A DNA stretch of 37,681 bases from Chloroflexota bacterium (GTDB lineage: Bacteria; Chloroflexota; Dehalococcoidia; Lucifugimonadales; Australimonadaceae), in contig JAPPHT010000004.1 of assembly GCA_028874795.1 (NCBI GenBank), forward strand, positions 1-37,681, written 5' to 3'. Numbering within the stretch: position 1 is the first letter of the stretch; each line of letters begins with the position of its first letter. A program made the position numbers and the translations under genes. The notes beneath the pieces were generated by a model. It was not told the DNA's origin. It did not search any database and worked only from the letters and a program-made list of their open reading frames with translations. Below are positions 7,331-16,844 of the stretch, one piece after another.

Positions 7331-10892
<3,562 letters not shown>

Positions 10893-14278: not shown

Positions 14279-14409
14279 CGGGTATCTTCCCTCCCGCAGA
14301 CCAGTGGACTTACCCGCCATTCTACCATCCGCCGTACCGTCCGCCCTCCGGTGCGCCGACTGCCTCGATGGACGATGCGCGTCCCGGTGTGCTACGCTCG
14401 CTCCACGGT

Positions 14410-14486
14410 CGGGGTGTGGCGCAGTCCGGAAGCGCACCTGCATGGGGTGCAGGGGGCCGTTGGTTCAAATCCAATCACCCCGACCA
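14410..14486 (+). tRNA. tRNA-Pro (anticodon GGG)
   Basis: The acceptor stem CGGGGTG (14410-14416) pairs with CACCCCG (14476-14482). The anticodon stem CCTGC/GCAGG encloses ATGGGGT with anticodon GGG at 14444-14446. The T loop is TTCAAAT, the discriminator is A14483, and CCA is encoded at 14484-14486. It is divergent from prfB and ends 28 bases before the next coding start. TACGCT at 14393-14398 is a weak -10 candidate. Confidence 0.97.
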
Positions 14487-14514
14487 TTTCCCACCTTCGC
14501 ACGGGAGAGAACGC

Positions 14515-14943
14515 GTGACGACATCCGGCAGTGGCAAGCCTCCGTGGGTGGTGGAACACCTGGAGCGCTACCTGGCAACCGACGGCGAAGAGGGCCACGT
14601 CTGGCGCGGTATGCAGACCCTCTTGCTCACAACGACGGGTCGGAAGTCCGGCAAAGAGTTCACAACCCCACTCATCTACGGCACACATGAAGGCCGCTGG
14701 ATAGTTGTGGCCTCGCGCGGCGGCGCGCCTGACCACCCGCAGTGGTACTACAACCTCAGCGCGAATCCCTCCGTTCGCGTGCAGGTGGGTGCGGAGCGGT
14801 TCGACGCCACCGCGAGCACAGCCGGCCCCGACGAGAAACCAGCGTTGTGGCAACTCATGAACGGCGTCTATCCACGCTACGACGAGTACCAGGCGGGGAC
14901 GGAGCGGCAGATCCCCGTCGTCATCCTGGAGCGCGCCGGCTAA
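14515..14943 (+). CDS. deazaflavin (F420)-dependent nitroreductase family protein
   Basis: A 142-residue protein resembling the Ddn/DUF385 family, split beta-barrel enzymes that often use F420. Diagnostic stretches are LLLTTTGRKSGKEFTTPLIY and WIVVASRGGAPDHPQWYYNL, followed by NPSVRVQVG. The GTG at 14515 is chosen because GGGAGAGA precedes it. A longer frame reaching back to 14368 would run through the tRNA and is not credible. With the LLM oxidoreductase at 24394-25350, it suggests an F420-using host. The physiological substrate is unknown. Confidence 0.9.
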   Translation: MTTSGSGKPPWVVEHLERYLATDGEEGHVWRGMQTLLLTTTGRKSGKEFTTPLIYGTHEGRWIVVASRGGAPDHPQWYYNLSANPSVRVQVGAERFDATASTAGPDEKPALWQLMNGVYPRYDEYQAGTERQIPVVILERAG

Positions 14944-14973
14944 CGCGTCTCACGACGTTCATCTCTGGCTGCA

Positions 14974-15008
14974 AGAGGGGCCGGGACAGCGTGTGTCCCG
15001 GCCCCTCT
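14974..15008. terminator. 15-bp hairpin between convergent genes
   Basis: A perfect 15-bp GC-rich stem (14974-14988 with 14994-15008) with a 5-base GCGTG loop. It lies between the end of the nitroreductase-like gene (14943, plus) and the end of the Cys-cluster/HTH gene (15055, minus). No T run follows, but the position and perfect pairing fit a bidirectional terminator. Confidence 0.65.
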
Positions 15009-15054
15009 GCTTCGGTGTTGCCTCGGTTGGTGCTCATGCTATGGGACGCGCGGA

Positions 15055-15369
15055 TCAGGCCGCAGCAGCAAGGGGCGTTTGTATCCGGCGCAGCGCGCGG
15101 TGCACCGTGCGCACGCTGATGCCGAACCGGGTCGCCACCTCGTAGACGTGCAGGTTCTCATACTGGTAGGTCCAGGCGATCTCTTCGTCGCGTTCCCGCA
15201 GCTTGTAGGCCTGGTACCAGGCAGGGTCGTCGAACTTGCAGCGGGGCAGGGGGCACTCCAGGCACGACATCGACGCCTCGCAGCCTGTGTCGGCGTAGTG
15301 CATCTGCTCAGGTAGTCCGTCCACGGTCGGCTCGTCCCGCCTTCGCCTTGTCTTCGTGTACATGCTCAT
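15055..15369 (-). CDS. small Cys-cluster helix-turn-helix protein, second gene of the LexA-box operon
   Basis: A 104-residue protein of unrecognised family. An Arg-rich start (KTRRRR) is followed by four cysteines, Cys30, Cys36, Cys39 and Cys44, in GCEASMSCLECPLPRC. This C-x5-C-x2-C-x4-C pattern could bind zinc or an iron-sulfur cluster. Residues about 66-96 form a helix-turn-helix (VYEVATRFGISVRTVHRALRR). The likely role is a small DNA-binding, possibly redox- or metal-sensing regulator. The ATG at 15369 is preceded by AAGGAGGAAGAG. An alternative GTG at 15450 overlaps the upstream stop as GTGA but lacks a ribosome binding site. It is cotranscribed with the terminase-like gene. Confidence 0.8.
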   Translation of the reverse strand: MSMYTKTRRRRDEPTVDGLPEQMHYADTGCEASMSCLECPLPRCKFDDPAWYQAYKLRERDEEIAWTYQYENLHVYEVATRFGISVRTVHRALRRIQTPLAAAA

Positions 15370-15446
15370 CTCTTCCTCCTTCCGGTCATTCCGCTTCATA
15401 ACGGCTGTCCATCCGTTGTCGAAACCGTCCGTCCAGGCAACACTCC

Positions 15447-16751
15447 TCACGACGCGATCGCGATGGGGAATACCAACTGCTGTTCTTCTCCCTGCTCCGC
15501 GCCTTCACTGATCAGCATGGACAGGCCTTCCAGGAATCCCTCGTCCTGTCCCTCTACAACCACCGTGAACCCACGCCCCTCCCCGAGGCGCAGCACCGCC
15601 CATTCCATCTCCCGGCGCAATGCCCTGTACTCGGGAGAACCGTCCATGTCGTACAGAGAGAGCTTCCCCGTCAGCAACGCTGCGAGAATGGAGGTCGATT
15701 CCCGTTCGCGCTGCCGTCCCGTATCGGGGACCCACCGCACGCCGCCGGGGCGCAGACTGTGCTGCAGCAGCAGTCGCATCTGTCCCTCGTCCTGACAGCG
15801 CATCCGCACCAGCAGGCTCTCACAGGGCCAGGTCCTCTCCAGGAAACGCTCGATCGCCGCTACGAGTGGCGGCACGTCCGGCGCCTTGATCCACTTGTGA
15901 TCGAGCACGCGAAGCCCGCCTCCCGTACAAGACGCCACAGTCACGACGGCCGTCGCCGGCGTACCCCCCTCCGCAAGCCGCGTGACGACGACGGAGGCGA
16001 TGAGCCGACCGGCCACGGCAAGCCGCCGCGGACCGCCCCCTCCGAAGAGTCCGCGCAACCGCCCCCGCGAGAACGCCGCAGCGCCCTGAGAAACCGGGCG
16101 CAGCTCGTAGGACGTCTCGAACTCCGGGTGCGCGACTCCAAGCCTCTCCCGTTCGACTTCAACCCTTCCTGCGTAGCCGGGCAGCTCCGCTTCTGCCCGG
16201 GCCAGCGGAACCCGGAGATGCCTGCGGACTCCTTCCGTGCGGACGGCGTCCTTGTTGGCCAGCTTGATGCGTTCGAACGGCGTCGCTCCGTTCCACGGGC
16301 GTCCGTAGAGCACGACCGTCGCGCCGGATGCACCCGCGATCTCCTGCAAACGCGCTATCTCAGCCGGCCGGAGGAGCTGGGCGTCAACCGCCTGTATCAG
16401 TTCGAACGGTCCGGCGGTGCGCGGGAGGTCCTCCGGCGCCGCATAGTGCGCGTGGGCGCGACCCAGGCGCACACATCCGCGTTCATCCGACCAGAGACCC
16501 CTCAGCGCGCTCTCGCGCAGGTTGCTGATGAGCCGCCCCTTCACATCCGGATGTCCTCCCGGAACGACGCGCAGCAGCGCTCCGCCCGCGTTCACACCGA
16601 CGCCCATCACCAGCATCTCCAACTGCGATGCCAGCTCGCTCACACCTGAGCCGAGCGGCATCTCTACCGTGAAAGTCGATCCCCGCTGCCCGAACACGTC
16701 TCCAGCGACCGCTGTCGCTATCTCACGCTGATATGTCGTTGGCGTCTTCAT
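15447..16751 (-). CDS. degenerate terminase large subunit-like protein under LexA-type control
   Basis: A 434-residue protein whose segment order resembles a phage terminase large subunit. An ATPase-like part includes VEMPLGSGVSELASQLEML (28-46) at the Walker A position and FELIQAVDAQLL (116-127) at Walker B. VVLYGRPWNGATPFERIKL lies at the coupling motif, then HPEFETSYELRP, then an RNase H-like C-terminal half from about 250. Key residues look lost: no P-loop Lys (GSGVS), no DE pair at Walker B, and no Asp in the first nuclease strand (SVVVTRLAEGG). It may be a domesticated, non-catalytic protein. ATG at 16751 follows AGGAGA. The promoter carries LexA-type boxes. The assignment is by eye and tentative. 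Confidence 0.6.
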   Translation of the reverse strand: MKTPTTYQREIATAVAGDVFGQRGSTFTVEMPLGSGVSELASQLEMLVMGVGVNAGGALLRVVPGGHPDVKGRLISNLRESALRGLWSDERGCVRLGRAHAHYAAPEDLPRTAGPFELIQAVDAQLLRPAEIARLQEIAGASGATVVLYGRPWNGATPFERIKLANKDAVRTEGVRRHLRVPLARAEAELPGYAGRVEVERERLGVAHPEFETSYELRPVSQGAAAFSRGRLRGLFGGGGPRRLAVAGRLIASVVVTRLAEGGTPATAVVTVASCTGGGLRVLDHKWIKAPDVPPLVAAIERFLERTWPCESLLVRMRCQDEGQMRLLLQHSLRPGGVRWVPDTGRQRERESTSILAALLTGKLSLYDMDGSPEYRALRREMEWAVLRLGEGRGFTVVVEGQDEGFLEGLSMLISEGAEQGEEQQLVFPIAIAS

Positions 16752-16766
16752 CTCGGTTCTCCTGCA

Positions 16767-16778
16767 GAACGTATGTGC
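16767..16778. promoter_or_regulatory. imperfect LexA-type box in the 5' leader
   Basis: GAACGTATGTGC differs at one base from the GAAC-N4-GTTC palindrome. It lies in the transcript leader, starting exactly 33 bp from the box in the promoter spacer. On its own it would be weak evidence; the equal spacing to two perfect boxes supports it. Confidence 0.55.
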
Positions 16779-16793
16779 TACTACGCTGGGCGC

Positions 16794-16822
16794 ATATTAG
16801 AACGCTTGTTCTACGCTGTCAA
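16794..16822 (-). promoter_or_regulatory. strong sigma70 promoter of the LexA-box operon
   Basis: The minus strand reads TTGACA (16822-16817, perfect -35), a 17-base spacer, then TAATAT (16799-16794, 5 of 6 matches to the -10 consensus). Transcription should start near 16787, about 36 bases before the ATG at 16751. It is the best promoter match in the window. The spacer is occupied by a GAAC-N4-GTTC box, so a bound repressor would block RNA polymerase directly. Confidence 0.88.
16800..16811. promoter_or_regulatory. perfect LexA-type (DinR) box between -35 and -10
   Basis: GAACGCTTGTTC matches the GAAC-N4-GTTC core known for LexA/DinR in Bacillus and other Gram-positive bacteria. It is flanked by TA on each side (TA-box-TA). 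It fits entirely inside the 17-base promoter spacer. Confidence 0.85.
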
Positions 16823-16832
16823 CACCCTTTTA

Positions 16833-16844
16833 GAACGAATGTTC
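16833..16844. promoter_or_regulatory. perfect LexA-type box upstream of -35
   Basis: GAACGAATGTTC is a second exact GAAC-N4-GTTC site, starting 33 bp from the spacer box and 11 bp upstream of the -35 hexamer. Spacing near three helical turns puts the boxes on nearly the same DNA face, suitable for cooperative binding. Confidence 0.8.

Follow-up and report, generated by a model that had tools for sequence, protein, structure and literature searches.

A predicted pseudo-terminase and a Cys-cluster helix-turn-helix protein behind LexA boxes in Dehalococcoidia: probable remnant of a class-wide phage-derived head-gene set

Introduction

How does a gene for a phage-type terminase large subunit (TerL) without any intact catalytic motif come to stand, together with a small helix-turn-helix (HTH) gene, behind LexA-type boxes in a bacterial chromosome, and what could its product still do there? 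The locus lies in a window of 37,681 nucleotides, the whole stretch of DNA that was analysed, which is one contig (C31) of the 3.33-Mb genome of a Chloroflexota bacterium of the class Dehalococcoidia (G000). The favoured explanation, given a probability of about 0.68, is that the two genes, a pseudo-terminase and a regulator, have been exapted as a pair into the SOS regulon and are a remnant of a phage-derived head-gene set found across the class. It draws on computational evidence for the fold, the loss of catalytic residues, the LexA operator, the pairing of the genes, their origin and the selection on them.

The operon and its promoter

Two genes behind a LexA-type promoter were placed at 15055-16844 by an initial annotation, and both open reading frames lie where it put them (Table 1). 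The operon is a single chromosomal copy. The second frame was first called as 15055-15450 on the minus strand with a GTG start at 15450; judged from the sequence, the ATG at 15369 is the more likely start, because it comes after AAGGAGGAAGAG and relatives start there. No phage genes adjoin the operon, the neighbours being prfB, tRNA-Pro and genes for an F420H2 quinone reductase, an arylsulfotransferase-like protein and a DUF1501 protein. The initial annotation, which had reported no phage genes nearby, is right for the adjoining genes, but an unrelated lone portal gene and a capsid gene are present elsewhere in the genome.

Table 1. Genes and promoter elements of the operon, in positions of the window
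Feature	Position	Strand	Description
Pseudo-TerL	15447..16751	-	434 aa; ATPase domain ~1-220, nuclease domain ~223-423; all catalytic motifs degenerate
Cys-cluster HTH protein	15055..15369	-	104 aa; C30-x5-C36-x2-C39-x4-C44, long helix 49-70, HTH 75-97
-35 element	16817..16822	-	TTGACA
-10 element	16794..16799	-	TAATAT; 17-bp spacer
LexA box	16800..16811	-	GAACAAGCGTTC; inside the spacer between -35 and -10
Second LexA box	16833..16844	-	GAACATTCGTTC; upstream of -35
Third, weaker LexA-like box	16765..16780	-	CAGAACGTATGTGCTA on the + strand; downstream

Matches to the 16-mer TAGAACNNNNGTTCTA with up to two mismatches number four in the 37.7-kb window, against 0.22 expected, and three of the four fall in this promoter. 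The promoter box can be taken as a LexA operator because the same box precedes lexA, directly, in the same genome (G000:C36:987) and in G005, as well as imuB/dnaE2-type genes in G000 and G009. At least one box is found near the TerL start in every sampled locus of the family. A test for membership of the LexA regulon, an operator common to the operon and to lexA of the same genome, was met, and as far as sequence alone can tell the operon is a LexA-repressed member of the SOS regulon; its derepression by damage is inferred, without transcript data. The SOS control originally suggested is further supported by the box being kept before the TerL operon across the class. While the operon has the same operator as the SOS genes lexA and imuB-dnaE2 of its genome, it is unlike them in that its products lack a DNA-repair domain. 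With a 20-bp box pattern and 3 mismatches allowed, hits did not exceed those of the pattern's control in most genomes, and therefore only strict palindromes and a positional test were used. The LexA boxes before the imuB/dnaE2-type gene pair of the window's genome are at L090:6992 (G000:C61) and L089:6317 (G000:C27), and contig C27 seems to carry a second copy of that pair.

Fold of the 434-residue protein

Searched alone, the window TerL matched no family in Pfam or PHROGs and no defence family in PADLOC. Of 39 related genomes, 19 encode a relative of it; relatives outside its own family but within the order match PHROG TerL families (PHROG 2; best 6.9e-11). An AlphaFold model of the window protein (pLDDT 88.1, pTM 0.84) retrieved the TerL proteins of Sf6, D6E and HK97 in Foldseek at E ~1e-14, and superposed on D6E TerL (VIA) with a Z of 25.1 over 375 residues and an rmsd of 5.0. 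According to this model the protein is predicted to have the full TerL fold, and tests for a two-domain fold and for sequence homology via intermediates were both met. Intact relatives were part of the input alignment for AlphaFold, so the evidence from the fold and that from homology overlap to some degree. The description of the protein as terminase-like is thus backed by structure, by alignment to intact relatives and by the relatives' profile matches to TerL families, with a profile link that runs only through those relatives and not through the window protein alone.

In two-domain fold, domain order and length the protein resembles the TerL of phages (D6E, Sf6 gp2, HK97, P74-26/G20c), and intact relatives in the class keep the motifs RQGGKNE, DEAQ, D, DATG and GHDD. 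Unlike phage TerL, the window protein has lost all catalytic residues, has no portal or capsid of its own, and is encoded by a LexA-controlled chromosomal gene.

Lost active sites and selection

The Walker A Lys, the Walker B Asp-Glu, the first and second nuclease Asp and the His-Asp-Asp are invariant in 25 intact relatives (24/25 at one position). The window protein has V37, V122-D123, V255, R316 and D403-E404-G405 at those sites, and neither active-enzyme test, Walker A Lys with Walker B Asp-Glu or nuclease acidic residues, was met. Loss of the P-loop Lys, the Walker B DE pair and the first nuclease Asp had been noticed before; the second nuclease Asp and the HDD motif can now be added. Within the family, the Walker A Lys and first nuclease Asp are lost in all 12 members checked, the second nuclease Asp is retained in three, and the earliest branch (G011) retains E-E at Walker B. 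New residues have become fixed at the old active sites (such as R258 and G405, each 12/12) and are absent from the five intact relatives in the alignment.

Family TerL proteins are full length, without stop codons, in 12 family genomes and have 53 invariant positions. Nei-Gojobori estimates of dN/dS are 0.15-0.35 for TerL within the genus, and for the HTH protein 0.05-0.09 among closer members and 0.27-0.49 against G001; synonymous sites are near saturation in some of the pairs compared. Lost catalytic residues, fixed family residues and low dN/dS together argue, on these alignments, for a retained, non-catalytic protein, and it is unlikely that the window protein itself packages and cleaves DNA. 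Family TerL also evolves fast, with a long branch in the tree, and this, along with truncation in other families, fits slow decay too.

Such truncation is seen twice. Only a degenerate N-terminal half of TerL is left in one family (f25), usually behind paired LexA boxes and always with the Cys-HTH gene following it, and only a degenerate C-terminal half in another (f59), there too with the Cys-HTH gene after it. Kept beside half-only dead TerL in both, the Cys-HTH is therefore the constant partner of the pair. Structural genes of the operon's own kind are absent from all 16 family genomes searched (SPP1-type portal 0/16, SU10-type capsid 0/16), while the portal is present in 5/5 order-mates with intact TerL; elsewhere, capsid frames with internal stops show decay in G027 and G028 too. 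This absence, with purifying selection and the single chromosomal copy, upholds the earlier view of a domesticated module. Head genes (portal, capsid) with a terminase, as expected of a gene transfer agent (GTA), were not met in the window operon.

A class-wide gene set in Dehalococcoidia

A profile search found TerL in 233 of 393 class genomes and 143 of 229 genera, mostly as one copy and mostly with intact motifs. The SPP1-type portal was found in 184 of the 393, and 170 genomes have both portal and TerL (Fisher p 1e-39); Dehalococcoides sp. JdFR-56 is among the class genomes. The set is chromosomal and comprises TerS, TerL, Cys-HTH, SPP1-type portal, scaffold-like protein, SU10-type capsid and adaptor. 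At locus L331 (G155) the order is a box, a small membrane protein, a TerS-like protein, TerL, a second box, Cys-HTH, SPP1 portal (Pfam 3e-14), a scaffold-like coiled coil, SU10-type capsid (PHROG 212, 2e-54), SU10 adaptor (3.5e-8), a holin-like protein (weak) and tail-type proteins, followed by gyrB. The TerS call rests on a Dehalococcoides-type homologue (PHROG 6e-8). No integrase or replication genes were seen in L331, the sole set read end to end (to gyrB); the others were read in part. The genes can also be dispersed: G035 has TerL, portal and capsid each on a contig of its own, two of the three with a box, and in the closed genome G100 the TerL copies and an HTH-portal-capsid block are ~48-115 kb apart.

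Eighty named loci were scanned for the box, and 76 had enough upstream sequence. At 62 of these 76 the 2.5 kb upstream of TerL contain a box with at most one mismatch, compared with 1-4 of 76 for control palindromes (n=6), and box density upstream of TerL is 0.39 per kb vs 0.03 elsewhere. Most of the upstream boxes carry one mismatch (TAGAACNNNNGTGCTA or GTACTA), and LexA binding at these is less certain. Among related viral contigs, 13 of 67 have a box upstream.

Judged by eye, the TerL tree mostly groups proteins of the same host family, with f44 split; the window family, represented by 12 true family rows only, forms a long branch with full support. The GTA test of chromosomal head genes inherited with the host was met for the intact relatives, subject to the clustering by eye and to the split of f44. 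In several host families (L151, L159, L161 and L170) the neighbours of TerS/TerL include genes for a zinc-ribbon-type coiled-coil protein and an RNase H-type protein, a sign of a fixed position in the chromosome.

Homologues with intact catalytic residues in a complete prophage had been named beforehand as evidence that would refute the interpretation. Intact homologues do exist, beside portal and capsid, and to that extent the condition is partly fulfilled; but they represent the ancestral state, and the domestication of the window copy stands. Every proposal of the initial annotation that lent itself to testing held up; what it missed is the class-wide LexA-controlled head-gene set itself, intact in other families.

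The class-wide set looks like a LexA-controlled gene transfer agent or another domesticated prophage. As in RcGTA of Rhodobacter capsulatus and CcGTA of Caulobacter (PMC9632790, PMC11841831), the head genes of the intact relatives are chromosomal, mostly single-copy, host-regulated and sometimes dispersed, with no integrase seen in the one set read end to end. They are unlike these agents in having LexA boxes directly on structural operons, an SPP1-type portal with an SU10-type capsid, and the Cys-HTH, and no close sequence kinship was shown; the window has only a stripped-down remnant. Within the class, starvation of the KB-1 culture is reported to activate a Dehalococcoides prophage (Waller et al. 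2012, as cited in PMC3462421). This prophage is similar in that phage-type Dehalococcoides genes are switched on by stress and different in being described as Siphoviridae-like; it may or may not be related to the class set. The open-licence literature yielded no description of a gene transfer agent from Dehalococcoidia or any other Chloroflexota, and none of the class-wide set, which is no proof of novelty.

The Cys-HTH protein

The spacing C-x5-C-x2-C-x4-C was given correctly in the initial annotation, and the four Cys, which precede a long helix and an HTH, are invariant in sets of 30 and 32 homologues. A test for a zinc-finger HTH regulator (four invariant Cys plus HTH) was met on sequence features. 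By fold, the closest matches were Mor of phage Mu, sigma region 4 and DeoR, each of them weak, and a relative matched PHROG 836 weakly (2.7e-5). No full-length match lies outside the class, where similarity is limited to the HTH part. Most simply the protein is a transcription regulator, a view that rests on fold type and on weak matches to phage late activators, with DNA target and zinc binding inferred. It is similar to phage Mu Mor/C-type and late transcription activators and to sigma region 4 in the HTH after a long helix and in the weak PHROG 836 and Mor-fold matches, and differs from them in the N-terminal four-Cys cluster; the matches are weak and generic. On the IMG/VR viral contigs L324, L316, L326, L328 and L329 a relative follows the capsid region and is not beside TerL.

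Other phage-type genes

HK97-type portal and capsid genes were considered as parts of the same system and rejected: they are of another type and lie elsewhere, with no LexA boxes nearby, and are missing in operon-bearing family members. In the window's genome they consist of a lone portal gene without phage neighbours (G000:C22:17694-18707, L048:9685-10962 on the minus strand; PF04860, 3e-59) and, on a separate contig, a pair of prohead protease S78 and capsid PF05065 genes (G000:C4:57116-58438, L047:9116-10438 on the plus strand). Both occur in 6/6 genus genomes and are ~1.76 Mb apart in the closed genome G001. They make up a second phage-derived gene set, its members dispersed. A tandem repeat in G001 covers the end of the capsid gene together with the next gene, for a large membrane protein (L049:11165-13468 and 14373-16682; L047 and L049). 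In G020 a TerL of another type (GRGFGKT P-loop) lies directly upstream of an HK97-type portal (L054:7545-10731), and the pair is preceded by an imperfect LexA-like box, AAACATATGTTC, at 7565.

Proposed mechanism and rival explanations

In the ancestor, LexA boxes would have controlled TerS, TerL, the Cys-HTH regulator, portal, scaffold, capsid and adaptor. The window lineage would then have lost portal and capsid, and its TerL the ATPase and nuclease sites, with selection keeping LexA control, the TerL fold and the Cys-HTH gene. Repression by LexA and its release by damage are established SOS biology. DNA damage would thus activate RecA, LexA would be cleaved, and the pseudo-TerL and Cys-HTH would be made together. 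The Cys-HTH may act as a transcription regulator that binds DNA and depends on zinc; the pseudo-TerL, being unable to package or cut DNA like known terminases, should work without catalysis, by binding. Derepression by damage, zinc binding, the DNA target and the role of the pseudo-TerL remain inferences, as there are no transcript, protein or phenotype data. For the pseudo-TerL the favoured role is that of a cofactor which helps the Cys-HTH by binding DNA or a partner, but taken alone this is an inference that may well be wrong.

The main rival is a dominant-negative blocker, in which dead TerL made during the SOS response obstructs, or is incorporated into, the packaging motor of phages or related GTA-like sets and the pair serves as an anti-phage or anti-particle module. 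SOS timing coincides with prophage induction, the fold and surfaces of a motor subunit are retained without catalysis, related TerL-portal-capsid blocks occur in the virus collection, and fast TerL against slow HTH evolution would suit an arms race; yet TerL has no PADLOC match, no defence genes adjoin the operon, and the half-proteins of two families would make poor motor subunits. This explanation is considered unlikely, though not negligible. An equally modest weight goes to slow decay, with only the Cys-HTH useful and TerL persisting as a functionless leader gene of the operon. The TerL halves in two families that always retain the HTH, and the stronger constraint on the HTH, are what such decay would leave, but dN/dS of TerL well below 1, full length without stops in 12 family genomes, 53 invariant positions and fixed family-specific residues are not.

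An ordinary prophage remnant without a host role would account for relatives in viral contigs and for the phage-type gene order of the intact sets. It is hard to square with single chromosomal copies that track host families in the TerL tree, with the class-wide LexA box and purifying selection, or with the lack of integrase and replication genes in L331, the set readable end to end, and is judged improbable. Little credence can be given to a working particle system in which pseudo-TerL and HTH serve the dispersed HK97-type genes: a lone portal and a prohead protease-capsid pair are indeed at hand in the genus genomes, but they have no nearby LexA box, they are absent in G008, G009 and G013, which keep the operon, and a dead motor cannot package.

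Implications

The exapted pair of the SOS regulon remains the preferred explanation. A wider proposal can be advanced only tentatively, with the balance of doubt somewhat against it: that the class holds a LexA-switched, vertically inherited, GTA-like set with a zinc-finger HTH regulator, and that in at least three lineages its motor has turned into a dead SOS protein with a new damage-response role alongside that regulator. Should the intact sets form particles, DNA damage would trigger gene transfer in Dehalococcoidia, among them organohalide respirers employed in clean-up. Lineages with a dead terminase would offer a natural example of how a packaging motor becomes a non-catalytic SOS protein, with intermediate stages in living relatives.
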